A DNA stretch of 35,214 nt from Candidatus Vecturithrix granuli (GTDB lineage: Bacteria; Moduliflexota; Moduliflexia; Moduliflexales; Moduliflexaceae), in assembly GCA_000739535.1 (NCBI GenBank), contig DF820470.1:83049-118262 (forward strand). The letters run 5' to 3'. Positions 12,975-27,978 of the stretch are shown one piece after another. Within the stretch, counting starts at the first letter, position 1. Each line of letters starts with the position of its first letter. The position numbers and the translations under genes are program-made. Under the pieces are notes generated by a model. It was not told the DNA's origin and ran no database searches. It saw nothing but the letters and a program-made list of their open reading frames with translations.

Positions 12975-13005
12975 AAAAACGGGGGTCGCCTTGAAGGCCA
13001 CCCCC
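12975..13005 (-). terminator. Intrinsic terminator of the small gene at 13050
   Basis: In the minus-strand transcript, GGGGGTGGCCTT pairs with AAGGCGACCCCC around a short loop, followed by GTTTTTAC. This is a clear rho-independent terminator 45 bases after the stop codon. Confidence 0.75.
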
Positions 13006-13049
13006 GCCAGGGACACTACCCATAAATACTCCCGTACTTCTTTCTGTTT

Positions 13050-13418
13050 TTACGCCGCGATTTTTTCGATAGAGAGAATATTTTCTAGTTCAATATGGCA
13101 CTGTTCGAGATATGGAAGTTGAACTGAGAGGATCTCGGAGTCCGGGATTCCGGCGATCTGCGTTCCATCCTGTAGCTCAAACAAAAAGTGCTTCAGCTTT
13201 CGTGAGACCATCCAGCCCGGATCATTCACGCGTTCGATTTTCACAATGTACGTGACAGCCAGATTCATTGGCATTCCGTTCAAATGTGAGGGTTTCACAT
13301 GAATCTCTGTTTGTGTAAATCGCGCCTGAAAGTGTGTTTCCCCCTTGAGAAAAAATTTGAAATAACCATCCGATTGTTGAACTCTTTGCCCAATTGCCCC
13401 ACCTTTATTGTTCCCCAT
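13050..13418 (-). CDS. Small protein of unknown function (122 residues) behind a sigma-54 promoter-like site
   Basis: I do not recognise the family. The protein is polar and probably cytoplasmic, with no signal or membrane segment. It alternates short beta-like stretches: GYFKFFLKGETHFQARF, LAVTYIVKIERV, LKHFLFELQDGTQIAGIP and CHIELENILSIEKI. The start is ATG 13416-13418 with a strong AAGGAGGAG. The open frame extends to 13478 without support. It has its own terminator and lies behind a near-consensus sigma-54 element at 13487-13501. It is next to the sigma-54 activator gene on the same strand, so it is a plausible target or effector of that system. Confidence 0.75.
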   Translation of the reverse strand: MGNNKGGAIGQRVQQSDGYFKFFLKGETHFQARFTQTEIHVKPSHLNGMPMNLAVTYIVKIERVNDPGWMVSRKLKHFLFELQDGTQIAGIPDSEILSVQLPYLEQCHIELENILSIEKIAA

Positions 13419-13486
13419 CAGGAATCTCCTCCTTTTAATATATGTTATCTGAGTGTTCCCAGGTGAACTCGTCAACAAACGTTATT

Positions 13487-13501
13487 GCAATCTGAATGCC
13501 A
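13487..13501 (-). promoter_or_regulatory. Sigma-54 (-24/-12) promoter candidate
   Basis: The minus strand reads TGGCATTCAGATTGC, against the RpoN consensus TGGCACG-N4-TTGC: GG-N10-GC spacing is exact and TGGCA and TTGC are complete. Transcription would begin near 13475, giving a leader of about 57 bases before ATG 13418. An RpoN activator gene lies directly upstream on the same strand. Confidence 0.7.
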
Positions 13502-13559: not shown

Positions 13560-13675
13560 GAACTTAACAGCCCTGCCCGCAAGCGCGGGGAAATGTTCAA
13601 TGGAACTCTGCGCTGCTCACGTTAGACTTCCCCGCGCTTGCAGGGGGATTGAGGGGGGTAGTGCATAACGTGAGA
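13560..13675. repeat. Dispersed C/G-rich repeat block (inverted copy of 1110-1350)
   Basis: It contains ACAGCCCTGCC, a CGCAAGCGCGGGG core and, near 13640-13665, a GGGGGATTGAGGGGGGTAGTG stretch that is the reverse complement of the start of the first copy. It may lie within the enhancer zone of the sigma-54 site. Confidence 0.7.
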
Positions 13676-13860: not shown

Positions 13861-13968
13861 TTCAAGCCATTTTCTGGCTTGAAAGAGCCAGTGCTTTTGG
13901 ACAGAAGTTCTTACTGGCAAACCTTGTCCGACAGATTCTGTTAATAAGAATTTCTGTCCCAAAGCACT
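13861..13968. repeat. Hairpin plus inverted repeat abutting the activator stop codon
   Basis: A hairpin TTCAAGCCA/TGGCTTGAA covers 13861-13881. Arms 13890-13913 and 13945-13968 (AGTGCTTT, GGACAGAA, TTCTTA) pair with few mismatches. The right arm includes part of the TAG stop of the sigma-54 activator, so the gene ends inside the repeat. It could act as the transcript's 3' structure. Confidence 0.65.
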
Positions 13969-15547
13969 AGAGTACGTAATTGTTCTTTTCTTCCGGTTCA
14001 TTTTCTTCTGACAGCGGATTTGTTTTACGATAGATCTGCCAGTACCAGTCGCGTAATTCAGGGTCTACAGCCTGTTTGGTGTGGTCGAGGCCCAGCAGAT
14101 TTTTGAGGCGTCCACGCGAAGCGCCTTTGCTGTAGCCTGCTTGTTCGAGCAGCTTTACTGCTGACGCAATTTTCCCATGCGAGAGTTCCAGGGCGAATTG
14201 AATTTGTTGCCGATGATTCCGCGTGAGTTCGCTTTCATTCCGCGGATTGAGTTGTTGACGCAGATCATGAAAGGCTGAACTCTGATCCGAAGAAACAGAA
14301 ATACCCTGGGGTTGGTTGGTTTGCTGGTTGACTTTAAGATGTAAATCTTCGACCTGGATGTGATCCCGGTCGTGGATGTCACAGGAAATTAACGCGCGTT
14401 CGATCACCTGATCGAGTTCGCGGATATTTCCGGGCCAGGAATACTCCAAAAGCTTCTGTAAGGCATGGGGATCGATGCTTTTATAAAAGCTTCCTGCATG
14501 TGGAGCATTTTCAAGTAAAAAATGATCAATCAATATCATCAGATCGTTCTGACCCCTTTCACGTAACGGAGGCAGTTCGATCGGCCACCCGCTCAGGCGA
14601 TATAAGAAATCCTGCCGGAAATTTCCTTTGCTGATTTCTGCTTCCAAATTTTTCACCGTCGCACAGATAATACGAACATCAACGGGTATCGGTGAACTTG
14701 AGCCCAGCGGTGTGACCTCGCGTTCCTGAAGCACACGCAATAATTTCACCTGCATGGATACGGGCATTTCCCCGATTTCATCCAGAAACAAGGTTCCCCT
14801 ATCGGCCTGGACGATGTGCCCCGGACGGTCATGGTCAGCGCCGGAAAATGCTCCTTTTTTATATCCGAATAATTCGCTTTCGAACAGCGTTTCAGGGATA
14901 GCTGAGCAATTAATGGCAACGAACGGCCTTCTCGCTCGTTTGCCATGCACATGCAGCGCTCTGGCCACCAGTTCTTTGCCGGTGCCGGTTTCACCGGTAA
15001 TCACAATATTAGTATCGGTATCGCACAATTTATCAATATAGAGCTTGATTTCCTGGAGAGGAGAGGTTGGAGACATCACCATGCCATATTCAGCGTATAA
15101 TCGCCGCGCTTTGGCTCGTCTGGCTAAAGTCGCAATTTCTGTGCGTAATTGTTCGACGCTGCAAAAATGATAATCATCCGGGTAGTTTTCCAGCATCGAA
15201 TCCCAACGTCTGCGAATGTCAACAGATCCATGCGGCGATGCTACAAAAAAATCGATCATCGGCGATTTCGTAATTTTCTGCGTAGGCCAGGGTAATTGCT
15301 TACGCCATTCAATGGTTTCTCTCATCACGCTGCGTGGAAAGCGAGAATCTAGCAGCAGCAGGATGGGCGTTTGGGCGGTTCCATCGAATTTTGTCACGTG
15401 GTGCAAACGTTCGTGTAACTCGGTTTTGGAATCTCTGCCATTGATGACGACCGCGCGTAAACCGGTAGTTCTTTCAAAGTTCTTGATCAGAGCCGGAGGA
15501 AAGGTATTCTCCTGCTCGGCAATCCAAAAGCTATCAGCTGTTAGCAT
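13967..15547 (-). CDS. Sigma-54-dependent AAA+ transcriptional activator with degenerate receiver-like N-domain
   Basis: This 526-residue NtrC-type enhancer-binding protein remodels RpoN holoenzyme with ATP. The AAA+ domain covers about 155-400, with Walker A GETGTGKE (185-192), GAFSGA (232-237, variant of GAFTGA), Walker B LFLDE (253-257), and FRQDFLYRLSGWPIELPPLRER. The C terminus has a Fis-like helix-turn-helix (FALELSHGKIASAVKLLEQAG). Residues 1-150 are not a normal receiver but keep a receiver-like strand order (AVVIN, ILLLLD, IDFFVAS, YHFCS); I infer a pseudo-receiver. ATG 15545-15547 follows GAGAGGAGG; the gene overlaps the upstream response regulator by 14 bases, so they are coupled. 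Likely targets are the sites at 13487 and 22320. Confidence 0.9.
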   Translation of the reverse strand: MLTADSFWIAEQENTFPPALIKNFERTTGLRAVVINGRDSKTELHERLHHVTKFDGTAQTPILLLLDSRFPRSVMRETIEWRKQLPWPTQKITKSPMIDFFVASPHGSVDIRRRWDSMLENYPDDYHFCSVEQLRTEIATLARRAKARRLYAEYGMVMSPTSPLQEIKLYIDKLCDTDTNIVITGETGTGKELVARALHVHGKRARRPFVAINCSAIPETLFESELFGYKKGAFSGADHDRPGHIVQADRGTLFLDEIGEMPVSMQVKLLRVLQEREVTPLGSSSPIPVDVRIICATVKNLEAEISKGNFRQDFLYRLSGWPIELPPLRERGQNDLMILIDHFLLENAPHAGSFYKSIDPHALQKLLEYSWPGNIRELDQVIERALISCDIHDRDHIQVEDLHLKVNQQTNQPQGISVSSDQSSAFHDLRQQLNPRNESELTRNHRQQIQFALELSHGKIASAVKLLEQAGYSKGASRGRLKNLLGLDHTKQAVDPELRDWYWQIYRKTNPLSEENEPEEKNNYVL

Positions 15548-16169
15548 ATTTTTGCAGCCTCCTCTCAATCGTGATCACCTCTTTAATCTCCCAGTTCAAA
15601 AATTCAGCCGCTTTCTCAATATTTTGTTTATGGAGTTGCAATGCTCTGTGCACAATTTTCTCTTCAACCGCTCGAATGGCTTGCTCGCTCGGTGCTTGTA
15701 ACATCCGTACCGTCTGAAATTCCTGAATACATTGCAGTAAACGTCGTCCCAACACCTGCGGATTTTTATATTCTTCGGTTGTGATGAAATCACTGACACC
15801 GGCCTGAACCATTTCCTGTTTCTGCATGTAATCCTCTTTGCCGGTAAACCCAATAACAGGGGGGATGTCAACGCCATACGTTTCACAGGTTTCGGCAAGT
15901 TTGCGGATAATCAAGACGCCCTCCATCGCCGGATTTTCCCCAAGTACTTTATGAGGCGGGAAAAAATTCATATCAACGAGCACGATATCCGGGAGAACTT
16001 CACCCCGATTCATGCGTGTAGCAATAAGCTGATGGGCTTCATGCCAATCTCGCGCCCATAAGACCATAAATCCCTGGTTTTCAAGGATCTTCCGAAAGAA
16101 AATTCGATTATCACGTTCATCATCTATCACAAATATTTCAAGTTTTTTAGGAAAAATATTGTTCATCAT
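15534..16169 (-). CDS. Response regulator: receiver domain plus Fis-type C-terminal domain
   Basis: This protein has 211 residues. Receiver residues 10-140 have the acidic pair Asp16/Asp17 (FVIDDERD), phosphoacceptor Asp66 (IVLVDMNFF) and Thr109 (IGFTGKED). The usual KP motif is replaced by TTEEYKNP, perhaps with Lys135 in place. Residues 160-207 resemble the Fis/NtrC DNA-binding helix bundle (AVEEKIVHRALQLH, NIEKAAEFLNWEIKEV, IERRLQKY), but there is no AAA+ domain. It is encoded just before the AAA+ activator, which itself lacks a true receiver. The pair looks like a split NtrC, with the input and a DNA-binding domain here and the motor in the next gene. The start follows AGAGGTGAG. The likely phosphodonor is the kinase-like fusion protein upstream. 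Confidence 0.85.
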   Translation of the reverse strand: MMNNIFPKKLEIFVIDDERDNRIFFRKILENQGFMVLWARDWHEAHQLIATRMNRGEVLPDIVLVDMNFFPPHKVLGENPAMEGVLIIRKLAETCETYGVDIPPVIGFTGKEDYMQKQEMVQAGVSDFITTEEYKNPQVLGRRLLQCIQEFQTVRMLQAPSEQAIRAVEEKIVHRALQLHKQNIEKAAEFLNWEIKEVITIERRLQKYANS

Positions 16170-16356: not shown

Positions 16357-19200
16357 TTACTGAAATCTCAACCATATAGGAAAAAAGAGCACGAGTGCTT
16401 GATCTTCGATAGTATTTTCAATTCCAAGATGAATCAAACGCGTTCGAAAGGGAAGTAAATTCGCCTGATCCGGCATACCTCCTTTTCCGGAAAGCGTCAT
16501 CAATATGGTGTGACGCTCTTGTGCCAATCGAAATGTGGCGGTTATGGGATATGCAGATTCTTCCGGCAGCATAAACTCTTTGATCCCCCACATCAGCGCA
16601 TCTTTTACCAATGGATGTGAGGCCGGGTGAGACAGTCTATATGCGGGAAGATCGCCCGGAATGATCTGTATGACATCTTCTGGCATCAACGCAGTTTGTC
16701 CATAAACTCTCTCTGTCTGAAAATCTTTCCAGATTTCTTTTCTGATTTCCAATATCATATTCAGCAGCGATTGCTGGGATAATTGATCAAGCACATCGGA
16801 AATTTCCTGTAAAGCATAATGATCCTGTTTCTGAATCAGTTTGACAAGCTCATCGAAAAGAGCAAGGTGTGTTGCTCTCCTTTCAGCAAGGTGTAACATG
16901 GTGTATTCTCGTTCGAGATCGGTCCGGAGCTTTTGTAGATGCGATTTGGCGGCTTCAGGAGTCGAAGAGCTATTCAGAGTCTTCAAGAGCCGCCCCACAA
17001 AATCGGTACAGATCCCTTTTTGTTTCCGCTTCTCATATTCAAGTTCTTGTAAAGCCGTACATAATTTCAAGGCCGTGTGGACAGGGAATGCTTTTGAAAG
17101 CCAGACAGGAATCTCAAACACACAGGTGGTTCCAAATCCGATTTTGCTTGAAATTTGAAGCGTGATATAATACTGTTCAAGACGTTCTTGATGATCGCGC
17201 CAGCCGCGAGAACTTTGTTGAATCTGTTCAAACAGTTCCGGAGTAAGCGTCCCGTTATCTTGCAACCAGACTTTCACCGTTTGTCCATTGGGAACAAACG
17301 GAGGATCAAGAAAAATATCTATGCGTACGCCATGAGCCGATTGGGCATGTCGCACGCTATTATTCAGCAGTTCCTCAAGTCCATCCTGCAATACGGCTTC
17401 AATTGTTTGCGGCCTTTCGGCGACCTCGCCGGCTCGATAAAGAATCGGGAATTTTTCTACCGGATAATAATCCGTCTGTTGCGGAAGAAGATTATGTACA
17501 TAGGGTACGACGGCATAGAAGGGATTTGTGGAGCGTTGTTCGTATTCCCGAACTGTTTTATCAACGATGTTCCGAAGGGGTTGTGTGGTTCGTCTATTAA
17601 TCAGTTGTTTGAACTGTGTATAACGATTTTCAAGCTGGGTGCGTTTCAACGCAAACGTTTCAGCAGGCGTTTTTTCGATGTCTTGAAAGGCTTCAAGGAC
17701 TTGTGCTTTGACATCTCCAAGATGGCGCAGCACGACATCGAGCCAAAATTCCTCGTGCTGAGGGGAGGACTGTTTATTCAATGCTTTGACGGCTTCGATA
17801 AGATGATCAAAGGCTTGTGAGAATTTTTGGATATACGGCGCGGTTTTCAGTGGATGTTGAGGATCTTGAAATCGTAACATCTCCACATCTCTTTTTACAT
17901 CGTGAATGATGTGTTCGAATTCTCGCGTCAAAAAGAGATGTTCAGCGCCATCACCTGGGGTAAACTGTTTTTGATCAATTTGCATCAAGTGTTGAATAAG
18001 ATGGGTCGCTTCATATTCAAAAAACGCGACAATCCGGCCGACTGCCAATAAATTCTCATGCGATCGTGAGTGCGTTTTTCTCCAAAGAAGCACCCTTCCG
18101 GCATCAGGATCGTTCATGAAAGTTTCTACAGCGGATTTCCGAAATGTATGGATTTCAAGCGAGACTCTCTGACCAACCGACGTTTTGTCACCATGAAACA
18201 GGGCATGACAGGAATGGAGAAACAGTTGCCCTTCGCGGATGTGAGGGCCAAAAAACATCATCAAAAACTCTGTGGATCTGAGGTCATCCAGCGTCAGAGC
18301 ATCTCTGAACAGGGCGTCAATTTTGATCACGGTCGGATATTGGGCCATCGCCCTACTGCTCAGGACAGCCGATGATGGCGTTGGCAGCGTTCCTTTATGT
18401 AATTCAACCGAAAGGATGGCCGTATGATCGGTGCGTCTGTTCATTCGGATAATCCCGGAAAGCTCTTGCGCTTCCTGATCCATGCCTTCCGAAAGAAGAT
18501 ATATCGGCGTATTTTCAGTAAATATGCCTCGTGATGGTCTGTCCGTTTGTAACCAGAAGATGCGCTGATCATCCGTTGGGATCGCCTTTCCCACCACCCA
18601 GAGATCCTCGGAATTCTGCTGATAGACAGCAACAAGTTTTTCAAGCGCCTCGACCAGACACGGTCCCTGATACCATGATGACGTTTGCAGGATATTCAAC
18701 CAGTACCCACAGGAATTTTTTCCGATCGGAATACAGGCTTCAACGCGCAGATTTGACAGAGAGTAGTGTTCTTCCAGAATATGGGAGAATTCTTGAGAAG
18801 CGTCAGAAAACCAGTCAATCTGTTCCTGATTTGGATCATTCATCCGATTCACAAGCACCAGATAACGGTTTACTCCGAGCCAGCATAATTTCTCAAGCAT
18901 TTCAAAGAACTGCGGGTGTCTGCGGAAACGCTGCTTCTGACAAAGGGAAGTCATTTTCTCCGGAGTGACGACAATCATTCCTGCCCGTTCAGGCATCTCC
19001 AGGTTGAGAGACTCTAATTTTGAATAGATCGTCAGCACATAGCCATTCAATCTCGGATAATTATCAAGCGCCATTCTGTATCGCAGCGGTTCTCTGCGTT
19101 GGGCAGAATATCTTTCTCCGAGAAGGCGACAGATCGTCTTCTTTCCTGTTTGCAACTGTCCCAGCACGGCAACACTTTTCAAGGCCTCTATGCTATTCAT
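16357..19200 (-). CDS. EF-Tu-like pseudo-GTPase fused to histidine-kinase-type (GHKL) ATPase
   Basis: This protein has 947 residues. Residues 1-210 look like a worn EF-Tu G domain: P-loop GQLQTGKKT (14-22), G4-like LVLVNRMND, and NILQTSSWYQGPCLVEALE, matching the WYQGP-LLEAL end of EF-Tu/CysN G domains. The DxxG switch II is missing and G4 Asp is Asn, so GTP hydrolysis is doubtful. Residues 210-390 resemble beta-barrel domains 2/3. A helical part has IIHDVKRDVEML near 431, a possible phosphorylated His box. A GHKL ATPase follows at about 600-715: N-box EELLNNSVRHA, G1 DNGTL, G2 GFGTTCVFEIP. The last 100 residues look like a second, worn GHKL fold. ATG 19198-19200 overlaps the previous gene's stop; an in-frame TTG lies at 19227. 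Confidence 0.7.
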   Translation of the reverse strand: MNSIEALKSVAVLGQLQTGKKTICRLLGERYSAQRREPLRYRMALDNYPRLNGYVLTIYSKLESLNLEMPERAGMIVVTPEKMTSLCQKQRFRRHPQFFEMLEKLCWLGVNRYLVLVNRMNDPNQEQIDWFSDASQEFSHILEEHYSLSNLRVEACIPIGKNSCGYWLNILQTSSWYQGPCLVEALEKLVAVYQQNSEDLWVVGKAIPTDDQRIFWLQTDRPSRGIFTENTPIYLLSEGMDQEAQELSGIIRMNRRTDHTAILSVELHKGTLPTPSSAVLSSRAMAQYPTVIKIDALFRDALTLDDLRSTEFLMMFFGPHIREGQLFLHSCHALFHGDKTSVGQRVSLEIHTFRKSAVETFMNDPDAGRVLLWRKTHSRSHENLLAVGRIVAFFEYEATHLIQHLMQIDQKQFTPGDGAEHLFLTREFEHIIHDVKRDVEMLRFQDPQHPLKTAPYIQKFSQAFDHLIEAVKALNKQSSPQHEEFWLDVVLRHLGDVKAQVLEAFQDIEKTPAETFALKRTQLENRYTQFKQLINRRTTQPLRNIVDKTVREYEQRSTNPFYAVVPYVHNLLPQQTDYYPVEKFPILYRAGEVAERPQTIEAVLQDGLEELLNNSVRHAQSAHGVRIDIFLDPPFVPNGQTVKVWLQDNGTLTPELFEQIQQSSRGWRDHQERLEQYYITLQISSKIGFGTTCVFEIPVWLSKAFPVHTALKLCTALQELEYEKRKQKGICTDFVGRLLKTLNSSSTPEAAKSHLQKLRTDLEREYTMLHLAERRATHLALFDELVKLIQKQDHYALQEISDVLDQLSQQSLLNMILEIRKEIWKDFQTERVYGQTALMPEDVIQIIPGDLPAYRLSHPASHPLVKDALMWGIKEFMLPEESAYPITATFRLAQERHTILMTLSGKGGMPDQANLLPFRTRLIHLGIENTIEDQALVLFFPIWLRFQ

Positions 19201-20959
19201 AGGTTTGATATTTTGGAAACAATTCAATGGAATAGGCCCCTGGACCGGGCTTCATTTTCTTGACCGTATGATACAACAAGCTCATCTCTTCTGAGGTCGG
19301 ATGAGGCATGACAATATGCCACCGATCCTGTACGCTGGTAAAAATATCAGGGAGTGTATGCAGTTTTGCCAGGTGATAAAATCGCTGGAATGGTGTGAGG
19401 ATTTCCTCTTTCTCAGGAAAGGTCTCTGGTGTGTATGTCAGCATCATTTCACACCGTTCAATAAAATATAACCGTAATACCCGGCCGCCACAAAATGATG
19501 TATTTTGTCGTAAGACAACATCCTGGACATCAGCATCAATGATTCCATTGACCCCCGGATAATCAACAGGAAAACCCAGTAATAATTCCACTTCAACGAC
19601 ATCGCCAATCTCTTTCTCATCTTCACGTAATTGTTCCTCGCGCGGACATACTGACAATACCAGCGCATCTCCTTTTTTTTGTCCATATAAATAGACAAGC
19701 CATTGCTGCCCCTCAGCAATTTTGCGGCTATAGATCGGGACAAAGAGTTCGGCCATCACCACATTACCGCTTATCACGGCGTCGCCAGCGTTGGTAATGA
19801 TGCATCCTTTACGAAAATACAATGGATATTTTTCCGGAGAATATTTTGTCTTCCCGTGGGGATGGAAAGTCAGCCCGATAATATGGCCTGCTTCGAACTG
19901 CTGATCCTGAGCCGGAGATTCAAGTGGGATTTTCCCGATCCAGGGCAGTTGGGCTTTCTGGTCGCGCTGGCGAACATGCTTCACTCGTCCTCTGAGTTTC
20001 TCTGTATCATGGAATTCTTTGGCAGGGTCGCAGAGCGGAGAAATCTGAATTTCTTGATCTTTAGAGAGCGTCCCACGAATAATCCGACCAGTGACAATAC
20101 ATGGAGAACCCGGCACTCGTTTCAAATACATCTCTTCCACCGGAATAAGTAACGGCCCTTTTGAAGGTTGCAGAGCGGGAATTTGAGCGATCTGCTCGAC
20201 AACGGTAGGGCCTTGATACCAACTCATCGGGTGCTCAGATGGGACAGCGTGAATGACATTCATATCCGACCGCGCTTCAACCTGGATGCTCGTAGGGATC
20301 ACGTGAATCGCCTGTTGGGGAAGGTCTGAAAACCACGCTAAAAATGGCCGGAGTTCTTCAACAGACAGTTCATACACCAGTTGGTCGTACTGAACCAGAT
20401 CCATTTTACTGATGACCACAATCAATTGTTGGAAACCATACGTACGAACCAGAATAGGGTAAAAACAGATATTCCAAAAGCGTGAGTTTCTGACATGTTG
20501 TACAAGGGTTCCCTGGTTGTCGTAATAACGGTTAATCTCCTGGATCATATCTAAAAGAGGTTCTAAATCATTGGCCGCCAGCACCAGAACCGCAGCTTGC
20601 GCCTGAAAAATGCCTGTCGTTGCATTCGAAATGAATTTTTCGTGTCCCGGAACATCAATAAACAGATACGTTTTTTCACCAATCGTGCATTCTATGTATG
20701 TTGGGACAATGCTTGCGCCTTCGAATTTTCTCTTTCCCTCCTGACTCAAATGCCCCTTGCGTTCATCCTGAATTTTATCAAAAAGATAGGTATAGATGCG
20801 ATCTTTGCGATACCAATCGGGCTTTTCCTGTTCCCAGGCGGCGATTTGCTTCCAATAGTTCGGATCGTTCAGATGATGAAGGATAATATATCCGAATAAC
20901 GTGGATTTTCCAAAATCAGCCGGCCCCATTGAGGTAATTCTGATCGGAATATTCTGCAT
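19193..20959 (-). CDS. EF-Tu/EF-1A-like translational-type GTPase
   Basis: This protein has 588 residues and a complete-looking G domain: G1 GPADFGKST (12-20), G3 DVPGHEKF (102-109), G4 SKMD (184-187), G5-like IPTSIQ, and MSWYQGPTVVEQI closing the domain. The segment FDKIQDERKGHL resembles the EF-1A switch I helix (DKLKEERERGIT), but the switch Thr is not evident. Barrel domains follow (VEEMYLKRVPGSPCIVTGRI and GHIIGLTFHPHGKT), then about 150 unassigned residues. It is longer than EF-Tu (about 394) and is not in a ribosomal operon, so I infer a signalling role. Start ATG 20957-20959, five bases after the upstream stop with GGGGG upstream; it overlaps the next gene by eight bases. CysN or SelB are alternatives; the context fits neither. 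Confidence 0.8.
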   Translation of the reverse strand: MQNIPIRITSMGPADFGKSTLFGYIILHHLNDPNYWKQIAAWEQEKPDWYRKDRIYTYLFDKIQDERKGHLSQEGKRKFEGASIVPTYIECTIGEKTYLFIDVPGHEKFISNATTGIFQAQAAVLVLAANDLEPLLDMIQEINRYYDNQGTLVQHVRNSRFWNICFYPILVRTYGFQQLIVVISKMDLVQYDQLVYELSVEELRPFLAWFSDLPQQAIHVIPTSIQVEARSDMNVIHAVPSEHPMSWYQGPTVVEQIAQIPALQPSKGPLLIPVEEMYLKRVPGSPCIVTGRIIRGTLSKDQEIQISPLCDPAKEFHDTEKLRGRVKHVRQRDQKAQLPWIGKIPLESPAQDQQFEAGHIIGLTFHPHGKTKYSPEKYPLYFRKGCIITNAGDAVISGNVVMAELFVPIYSRKIAEGQQWLVYLYGQKKGDALVLSVCPREEQLREDEKEIGDVVEVELLLGFPVDYPGVNGIIDADVQDVVLRQNTSFCGGRVLRLYFIERCEMMLTYTPETFPEKEEILTPFQRFYHLAKLHTLPDIFTSVQDRWHIVMPHPTSEEMSLLYHTVKKMKPGPGAYSIELFPKYQTYE

Positions 20960-20964
20960 CTTTT

Positions 20965-22281
20965 TTACCCCCTTCCATCCCTGATAAATTGTAATACCTC
21001 GTGTGAACACACATATTGACCTAACATACGAACGGGAGCCACGGCTTCCCACTTGCCATCTCCTCTTTTGATAATGTTGATCGTATCATGTTTGAAACTC
21101 CGTTCAATCCAGGTTTGTTCCATCCGTTGCACCCACCCTTTCAGGCAATAACGTTTTGAGCCTTCACCAGGATGTAACAGATCTTGCACAATCGCAGCCG
21201 CCAGCGCGCCTGATCCTGAATTACTGCATAGAGGAGAGCTTGGATATTCAGGCTCAATGGTCATAAAATTCACTTGTGCTGAATCGGCCTGGCAGCGATC
21301 TTCTACAAACGTCCACCCTCCAGGATATTTTGTAATGAACGGTTCACCCCCAAAATAAGCCGTTTCTTCCCACTGATCGCGGAGAACCCCAAGATTTGTC
21401 AGCAGATCAAGACTTGTATCCGGATAATCAAATAATTCAGACAACCGATACGCCTGAAGGCATTCATCTGAGACTGTTTCTACGGCTTCCATGAAATAGT
21501 CTGAAGCAAAATCCCCGATTGGGACAGCATAATGTAATTCCCCGACAAATACCGGAATATACGGAATAATCAAGAATTTGCTTTCATAATGCATTTTTGA
21601 CCCGGATTGCTCTGGAATACAGGCAATATCGATCTGGTAATCCTGTTCAAGTGGTTTCTCTGAAAAAAGCAGGTGGAGTTTTCGCAAAATTCTCTCCCTT
21701 TCTTCTTCTAGAAAATAACCCTGCAACACATCCTGAGCCTGTTCGTAAACACAGAGAGGCGCCTGAAAATCTTCACGATGGCAGAGAACGCGAAAAAATC
21801 CATCGGGTTCTGCCATGGCCTCAAACGTTTCCCAACTTCCCTCTGCTTGACACCAGTCATGCGACCATGAAGCAAAGCGCCAGCAGAAGTCACTCTGGGG
21901 ATAGGCTTGCTGCATATACTTTGCTGCAACCATAACCCCGCCAATGCTTACAGAAGCCTCCTTCCAATTATCTCCCTGTCCCGTGATATCCGAAAACCAA
22001 AAGCGGAGAATAATATGGTCATCTGGCAGAGAATTGACATCTATTTTCTCGAAATTGCACGAAATATCTGAACATATCGGAGTATGATTTTTCAGATATT
22101 CCGGAGCAAAGAGCATAATGATTTGGTTCACTCGCAAAATGTGTTCAGGTAATCCTTGTAAAATTTCATAATAACAGATCTCGTCGCGGCAAAGCTGATT
22201 CATATCAATAATCGCGAATGTTGGTCCACAAATAGCTCCTATATGTACAGTGAGCTGGTTAGATGAGTTATGTGGATTCAC
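20965..22281 (-). CDS. Degenerate DapF-like (diaminopimelate epimerase fold) protein
   Basis: This 438-residue protein is not a clear family member but has landmarks of the DapF/PhzF fold in order: GAICGPTFAIID (15-26, cf. GLGNDFVVVD), ILRFWFSDITG...VSIGGVMVAAKYM (91-123, cf. RIFNADGSE..MCGNGARCFARY), QVNFMTIE (336-343, cf. NVEFVEV) and SNSGSGALAAAIV (353-365, cf. ACGTGACAAVV). At the two catalytic cysteine sites it has VSIGG and SNSGS, so epimerase chemistry is unlikely; a binding or sensing role is my inference. An extra segment (about 130-210) and several Cys/Trp residues are unusual. It starts at GTG 22279-22281 after TGGAGG and leads the cluster, behind a sigma-54-like promoter. Confidence 0.55.
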   Translation of the reverse strand: MNPHNSSNQLTVHIGAICGPTFAIIDMNQLCRDEICYYEILQGLPEHILRVNQIIMLFAPEYLKNHTPICSDISCNFEKIDVNSLPDDHIILRFWFSDITGQGDNWKEASVSIGGVMVAAKYMQQAYPQSDFCWRFASWSHDWCQAEGSWETFEAMAEPDGFFRVLCHREDFQAPLCVYEQAQDVLQGYFLEEERERILRKLHLLFSEKPLEQDYQIDIACIPEQSGSKMHYESKFLIIPYIPVFVGELHYAVPIGDFASDYFMEAVETVSDECLQAYRLSELFDYPDTSLDLLTNLGVLRDQWEETAYFGGEPFITKYPGGWTFVEDRCQADSAQVNFMTIEPEYPSSPLCSNSGSGALAAAIVQDLLHPGEGSKRYCLKGWVQRMEQTWIERSFKHDTINIIKRGDGKWEAVAPVRMLGQYVCSHEVLQFIRDGRG

Positions 22282-22319: not shown

Positions 22320-22334
22320 GCATATTTTATGCCA
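22320..22334 (-). promoter_or_regulatory. Sigma-54 (-24/-12) promoter candidate before the DapF-like gene
   Basis: The minus strand reads TGGCATAAAATATGC: GG-N10-GC spacing is exact and TGGCA is complete, with TATGC in place of TTTGC. Transcription would start near 22308, giving a leader of about 27 bases with TGGAGG before the GTG start. The cluster itself encodes an RpoN activator, so autoregulation is plausible. Confidence 0.55.
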
Positions 22335-22406: not shown

Positions 22407-22450
22407 CTAAGTCAAAAGAAAATGACCTGTCAAGCCAAAAAATGACTTAG
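22407..22450. promoter_or_regulatory. Candidate upstream activator (enhancer) site, CTAAGTCA / TGACTTAG
   Basis: Perfect 8-base inverted arms (22407-22414, 22443-22450) are separated by 28 bases, with a further GTCA/TGAC pair inside. The centre is about 100 bases upstream of the -24 element, a usual distance for NtrC-type activators. The IS982 element begins only 46 bases beyond it. Function is inferred from position only. Confidence 0.4.
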
Positions 22451-27335: not shown

Positions 27336-27680
27336 ATGCGAAAAATTAATTTTTATCGTGATCGGTTAGGATATTGTCCTGTTGAGGAATTTTTAGACCG
27401 TCTCAACGCCAAGCAGGCGCAGAAAGTGGCATGGGTGTTACGCCTGATCGAAGAACAGGAGATCATTCCGAGCACCTATCTCAAAAAACTCGTCAATACC
27501 GACGAGATATGGGAGGTGCGAGTCCAATTCGGCAATGATATATTCAGGTTATTAGGCTTTTTTGAAGATCGCAACCTGATCATTCTGGCACATGCGTTTC
27601 AGAAAAAATCCCAGAAAACGCCGAAAAATGACATACATATTGCCGAAATACGAAGACAAGAGTATCTGAGGAGGAGGTAA
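27336..27680 (+). CDS. HigB/RelE-like (Gp49 family) toxin
   Basis: This 114-residue protein is likely a ribosome-dependent mRNA interferase. Family pattern: NFYRDRLGYCPVEEFLDRLN, the helix AQKVAWVLRLIEEQE, TYLKKLVNTDEIWEVRVQFG, DIFRLLGFFEDRNLIILAHA and the basic tail QKKSQKTPKNDIHIAEIRRQ. The frame is intact, unlike the related gene at 5423. It is 16 bases after the DctQ stop and one base before the antitoxin start, whose ribosome binding site lies inside this gene's end. Probably inserted into the TRAP operon by transfer. Confidence 0.85.
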   Translation: MRKINFYRDRLGYCPVEEFLDRLNAKQAQKVAWVLRLIEEQEIIPSTYLKKLVNTDEIWEVRVQFGNDIFRLLGFFEDRNLIILAHAFQKKSQKTPKNDIHIAEIRRQEYLRRR

Positions 27681-27681
27681 A

Positions 27682-27978
27682 ATGAGCGACTTACAACAAT
27701 ACATCAACAACAGAAAGGCACGGGAGCCTGAGTTTGCCCAAAACTTTGAGGAAGGGTATCAAGCTTTCAAAATCGGATTTCTTTTAAAACAGGCGCGAGA
27801 AGAAGCGAGATTGACCCAGGAGGAAGTGGCAAAACAACTTAACCTGAAAACAGCGACCATTTCAAGAATTGAAAATCATTCGGAAGAGATCAAGCTTTCC
27901 ACATTAGAGAGAGTCGCATCGGCCTTAGGAAAAAGAATAGACATCGCGGTCAATAATAGTCACCTCGCTCGACGTTAA
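27682..27978 (+). CDS. HigA-like Xre-family antitoxin
   Basis: This 98-residue protein has an Xre HTH at about 35-90: IGFLLKQAREEARLTQEEVA, KQLNLKTATISRIENHSEEIK, LSTLERVASALGKRIDI. A strong AGGAGGAGGTAA lies before ATG 27682. The N-terminal helix (residues 1-30) probably binds and neutralises the upstream toxin. Antitoxins of this type repress their own promoter, but no clear operator palindrome is seen before 27336, so the pair may depend on the TRAP promoter. Confidence 0.85.
   Translation: MSDLQQYINNRKAREPEFAQNFEEGYQAFKIGFLLKQAREEARLTQEEVAKQLNLKTATISRIENHSEEIKLSTLERVASALGKRIDIAVNNSHLARR

Follow-up and report, generated by a model that had tools for sequence, protein, structure and literature searches.

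Gene organization of the p122 locus

The window, that is, the whole stretch of 35,214 nucleotides that was analysed, belonged to Candidatus Vecturithrix granuli UASB270 of the candidate phylum KSB3, and the genome searched comprised 21 contigs and 8,384,694 bases. A protein of 122 residues (p122) was encoded downstream of a five-gene operon on the same strand, which contained the genes of p438, a GTPase, a kinase-like protein, a response regulator and a sigma-54 activator. The positions of these genes and of the regulatory features around them are given in Table 1.

Table 1. Genes and regulatory features at the p122 locus (window positions; arrows give the direction of reading).
Feature	Position	Strand	Basis or remark
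p122 intrinsic terminator	12975..13006	minus	hairpin and five U
p122, 122 aa, two tandem Sm/SH3-like barrels (predicted)	13050..13418	minus	open reading frame, homologues, model
Ribosome binding site AGGAGG	13428..13433	minus	sequence; 9 nt before ATG
Putative sigma-54 promoter TGGCATTCAGATTGC	13487..13501 (13501→13487)	minus	zero mismatches to TGGCA-N6-TTGC
REP-like GC palindrome pair CCCGCAAGCGSGGGGA	13576..13644	.	inverted repeat; dispersed
Dyad CAAGCCATTTTCTGGCTTG, proposed activator site	13863..13881	.	about 400 bp upstream of predicted p122 start
Sigma-54 activator (bEBP), 533 aa	13967..15568	minus	Pfam, NCBIfam, PADLOC, alignment
Response regulator, weak Fis-type HTH	15534..16169	minus	PF00072 5.6e-11; HTH_8 0.023, under cut-off
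Kinase-like protein, 956 aa	16357..19227	minus	weak EF-Tu-like stretch and weak HATPase (histidine-kinase-type ATPase)
Translation-factor-type GTPase, 619 aa	19193..21052	minus	GTP_EFTU 7e-14; EF-1alpha-like 5e-32
p438, first gene of the operon, unassigned protein	20965..22281	minus	no family match
Second sigma-54-like site TGGCATAAAATATGC	22320..22334 (22334→22320)	minus	before p438; one mismatch, GG and GC kept
Dyad CAAGCCAAAAAATGACTTA	22431..22449	.	about 130 bp upstream of p438 start

The original prediction had described p122 as a single-gene unit beside an RpoN activator, with a strong ribosome binding site and its own intrinsic terminator, and each of these points was borne out. The neighbouring gene encoded a bona fide activator (Sigma54_activat 1.4e-65) with the intact Walker A motif (GETGTGKE) and the loop (GAFSGA, a T to S variant) of a canonical bEBP, and its AAA+ and C-terminal region was RtcR-like. 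A defence role was considered and rejected; in PADLOC, the similarity of the activator to RtcR-like models was limited to its AAA+ and HTH part, with no match to their N-terminal CARF part. The terminator, located 44 nt past the stop codon, consisted of a stem from C13006 to G12980 and a U run at 12979-12975 (−27.6 kcal/mol, z −3.5). An alternative in-frame TTG at 13478 would extend p122 to 142 aa and coincided with the predicted transcript start. The GC palindrome pair CCCGCAAGCGSGGGGA upstream of p122 was rejected as an activator site because it was a dispersed REP-like repeat, found at 49 genome places with at most one mismatch, and not a specific operator.

No family was found for p438, which had no homologue in 96 other genomes, and the kinase-like protein had none in 58 other genomes. 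The EF-Tu/EF-1alpha-type GTPase adjoined the kinase-like protein, which also had a weak EF-Tu-like stretch (16357-21052). Elsewhere in the window, genes of a Gp49/HigB-type toxin and an HTH antitoxin were located between the TRAP transporter DctQ and DctM genes (27336-27978).

Probable sigma-54 promoter and the shared dyad

The complete TGGCA and TTGC elements with correct spacing that had been predicted were present at 13487-13501 as an exact match, on the minus strand, which the original prediction had left unstated. TGGCATTCAGATTGC was the sole exact TGGCA-N6-TTGC in the window and had GG at −24 and GC at −12 with the spacing of a sigma-54-dependent promoter. The published sigma-54 consensus is TGGCAC-N5-7-TTGCT (PMC12316311). 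Hence, the label near-consensus held for the TGGCA-N6-TTGC core, whereas the consensus C after TGGCA was replaced by T; the same T occurred in eight of ten sampled promoter-position sites of this genome. The −12 C at 13487 places the predicted transcript start near 13475, in agreement with the start given earlier, and the −12 element lay 69 nt from the p122 ATG (13418).

The genome-wide scan for TGGCA-N6-TTGC that the original prediction had called for was run and returned 202 exact sites, so the motif by itself is weak evidence. In the window, matches with at most one mismatch numbered 16 where 11.6 were expected, which is not beyond chance. The motif with spacings of N3 to N9 was found at 906 places in the genome, which gives an average of 117 for each of the six spacings other than N6; the N6 count was 1.7-fold over this average (202 against 117). 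The motif read backwards with N6 occurred at 38 places, a control that differs in base order, and the spacing control was relied on instead. A promoter position, defined as intergenic with a gene start on the same strand within 250 nt, was occupied by 10 of 40 sampled exact N6 sites and by 1 of 40 off-spacing controls; these samples were small, and the controls came from contigs C1-C6 only, mostly different contigs from those of the N6 sites. Moreover, 9 of 100 N6 sites, the p122 site among them, had an activator domain no more than 1.5 kb away, about five times the expected 1.8. The genome contained one RpoN gene (PF04552 2.8e-64) and about 45 canonical activator domains (PF00158, many copies).

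The p122 promoter is credible because of these spacing, position and neighbour tests, and it is very probably genuine on this sequence evidence. The promoter itself is routine and of ordinary type. It resembled known −24/−12 promoters with an adjoining bEBP gene in its TGGCA-N6-TTGC core, its intergenic position and its activator neighbour; it differed from them in the T after TGGCA and in a dyad unusually distant upstream.

The upstream regions of p122 and p438 were compared, and one strong common dyad, YAAGYCA-N5-TGRCTTR, was found. Among 1500 shuffled pairs, with several arm lengths, gaps and orientations permitted, 6 reached an equally high score (p≈0.004), a value that is only modest because the pattern was derived from these same two regions. 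The dyad before p122 adjoined the 3′ end of the activator gene, and the REP-like element lay between it and the start; about 400 bp is far for an upstream activator site and counts against the preferred explanation, as does the mismatch in the p438 site TGGCATAAAATATGC (where the TTGC element begins with A instead of T). The simplest reading of the two dyads is one putative activator-binding site per promoter, which would include autoregulation.

The exact dyad had only two further copies in the genome. Both were within CRISPR-like arrays with identical flanking letters, and they were rejected as regulon members on account of this location. The two arrays (L025, contig C3 at about 41.3-44.3 kb; L026, contig C4 at about 28.8-31.8 kb) had different repeats and the common stretch CTGACTTGCCAAGTCAACC beside the exact dyad. 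This stretch probably represents spacers against one target.

Relatives and predicted fold of p122

The 122-residue protein had been called unknown, a description that no longer applies: the homologue search and fold prediction proposed at that time yielded relatives, in which the domain forms the C-terminus of KSB3 pseudo-activators, and a two-barrel model. p122 had no match over the cut-off in Pfam or NCBIfam, and an Imm53 match under the cut-off (E 0.09) was dismissed as chance. With p122 as the single query, no homologue came up in the scans of genome_contigs, viral contigs, plasmids, phages and PDB. The p122 domain was present at the C-terminus of two proteins of 358-361 aa in its own genome and of one protein in each of three KSB3 relatives (G001, G002 and G003). 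The homology (E 2.3e-8 to 1e-4 in single-sequence searches) was confined to this domain, and R63, D66, K74, H77, G85, Q87 and I88 were invariant in a four-sequence alignment of the family. Profile searches gave matches only in KSB3 plus one in a distant genome, which was rejected as spurious (50 residues, a stop inside the matched stretch and an unrelated gene region). Within the phylum, p122 was the single stand-alone case observed.

The rest of the protein in the five relatives (L003, L004, L002, L018 and L019) was a sigma-54-activator-type AAA+ domain. In all five, the Walker-A lysine was changed to methionine and the GAFTGA (L1) loop was removed by a nine-residue deletion, so they lack the marks of a canonical bEBP. 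The fused relatives were classed as pseudo-activators because the intact activators of the same genome, unlike them, retain both the lysine and the loop, and they are inferred neither to hydrolyse ATP nor to contact sigma-54. Known bEBPs without GAFTGA are Rhodobacter capsulatus NtrC, Caulobacter NtrC and Vibrio cholerae VspR (PMC10274813). The KSB3 pseudo-activators are alike in the deleted L1 loop, and differ in that they additionally lack the Walker-A lysine and carry the two-barrel domain after the AAA+ part; p122 differs further in having no AAA+ part at all, either fused to it or as a remnant upstream.

A sigma-54-like site with GG and GC kept and at most two mismatches was present within 400 bp upstream of none of the five pseudo-activator genes, whereas p122 and p438 each have one. 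One paralogue in the same genome and the G001 protein were encoded divergently to STAS, MlaE-like, ABC-ATPase and MlaD genes, which form a lipid-transport-type operon. The other paralogue adjoined radical-SAM and TIR-domain genes (L010, 4954-12000). Further along this region, a possible STAND-like ATPase was noted by eye, and the set resembles signalling or conflict genes. The neighbour of the G002 and G003 genes encoded a response regulator-type protein. In its own genome and in the KSB3 relatives, p122 homologues were never linked to a signalling cluster of the kind found here.

The p122 model (pLDDT 81) consisted of ten strands divided between two similar halves; each half had five strands, the fifth preceded by a short helical turn, and the profiles of the halves aligned with each other (hhalign probability 94.6%). 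The same ten strands followed the AAA+ part in the model of a pseudo-activator, in which the mean pLDDT was 72 and part of the AAA+ domain was poor. p122 is thus predicted to fold as two tandem five-stranded barrels. The best structural match was the C-terminal half of the type VI secretion accessory protein HsiE1/TagJ (PDB 4uqy; Z 8.5, rmsd 4.0, 102 aligned), followed by VPA1032 (1zbp; Z 7.0, rmsd 4.3, 107 aligned). p122 differed from HsiE1/TagJ (ImpE) and VPA1032 in sequence, with 8% identity, no sequence match, no type VI secretion context seen and no Pfam match over the cut-off. Since the HsiE1/TagJ match was near the background for such models, the two-barrel fold is claimed for p122 and not family membership. 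Single p122 barrels matched Sm, LSm and Hfq chains (Z about 3.3-4.5) with no sequence similarity. Tandem Tudors stood first in the Foldseek list; their superpositions were poor (rmsd about 13), again with no sequence similarity.

Proposed regulation and role of p122

In the explanation that we favour with some confidence, local control through the dyads and the activator would extend to both promoters. The proteins of the upstream operon would sense a signal, and the activator, or the response regulator, would bind both dyads. The bound activator would then drive sigma-54 RNA polymerase at the p122 and p438 promoters, by which the operon would amplify itself and p122 would be switched on. The weakest step concerns p122 itself, which may be a small soluble adaptor whose barrels bind a partner, either protein or nucleic acid, similar to that of the pseudo-activators; the sigma-54 response would thereby act on that partner without an ATPase. 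p122 had no ATPase, HTH or recognised catalytic signature, and as a free-standing protein it is most likely a putative binding module.

It is very unlikely that TGGCA-N6-TTGC is a chance word here and that transcription of p122 has another source, such as a sigma-70-type promoter or operon read-through. The number of exact matches, the majority of the sampled ones intragenic, and a sigma-70-like pair at 13702-13675 are compatible with this reading; however, such pairs were at chance level (two found against 2.9 expected), and N6 sites in promoter position outnumbered off-spacing ones by 10 to 1 in equal samples. The promoter could also be real with another activator of the genome controlling p122, its adjacency to the cluster being incidental. 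Any of the many canonical activators could act from a distance, the dyad lies 400 bp off, and the p122 homologues are unlinked to such clusters. This reading keeps a minor share of our credence, because against it stand a dyad common to p122 and the activator operon and, by exact match, at no other promoter, and the clustering of sigma-54 sites by activator genes (9 against 1.8 expected).

The third alternative makes p122 a functionless relic, the C-terminal stub of a pseudo-activator gene left after loss of the AAA+ domain. The restriction of the homology to the C-terminal domain and the single stand-alone occurrence in the phylum would fit such a stub. Against it, the upstream sequence showed no AAA+ remnant, and p122 has its own strong ribosome binding site and terminator, an open frame and the conserved positions of the family. 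A relic is considered unlikely.

Under the preferred local control, p122 is probably one output of the neighbouring signalling cluster. The original prediction, that p122 may be the output of the system, gains from the sigma-54-like promoter of the activator operon itself and from the dyad common to both upstream regions. It loses from the missing linkage of the homologues to such a cluster and from p438 and the kinase-like protein, which were without homologue in the sampled relatives. The missing linkage weakens p122 as the output of a conserved unit and does not refute local control.

A partner shared by p122 and the pseudo-activators is proposed because the fused relatives carry the module where activators have the DNA-binding HTH; by this analogy the idea is tentative, and we would lean against it. 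Still more doubtful, and put forward as a conjecture, is that the sigma-54 response in KSB3 produces, as a detached protein, the C-terminal module of a dead-activator family; p122 would thereby compete with inactive activator-like rings, or replace them, at their partner under the control of a GTPase/kinase sensor. If this were true, a regulatory link would join active and inactive enhancer-binding proteins.

p122 is a free-standing version of a domain that elsewhere occurs fused to inactive activator-like proteins and, as such, a modestly interesting variant. Through it, a small protein family tied to pseudo-activators comes to light that has no Pfam or NCBIfam match over the cut-off. Ca. Vecturithrix granuli, a bulking filament of KSB3, has been recorded to invest heavily in sensors and response regulators (PMC4312070), and the two promoters described here would together form a testable regulon attached to one signalling cluster of this uncultured filament.
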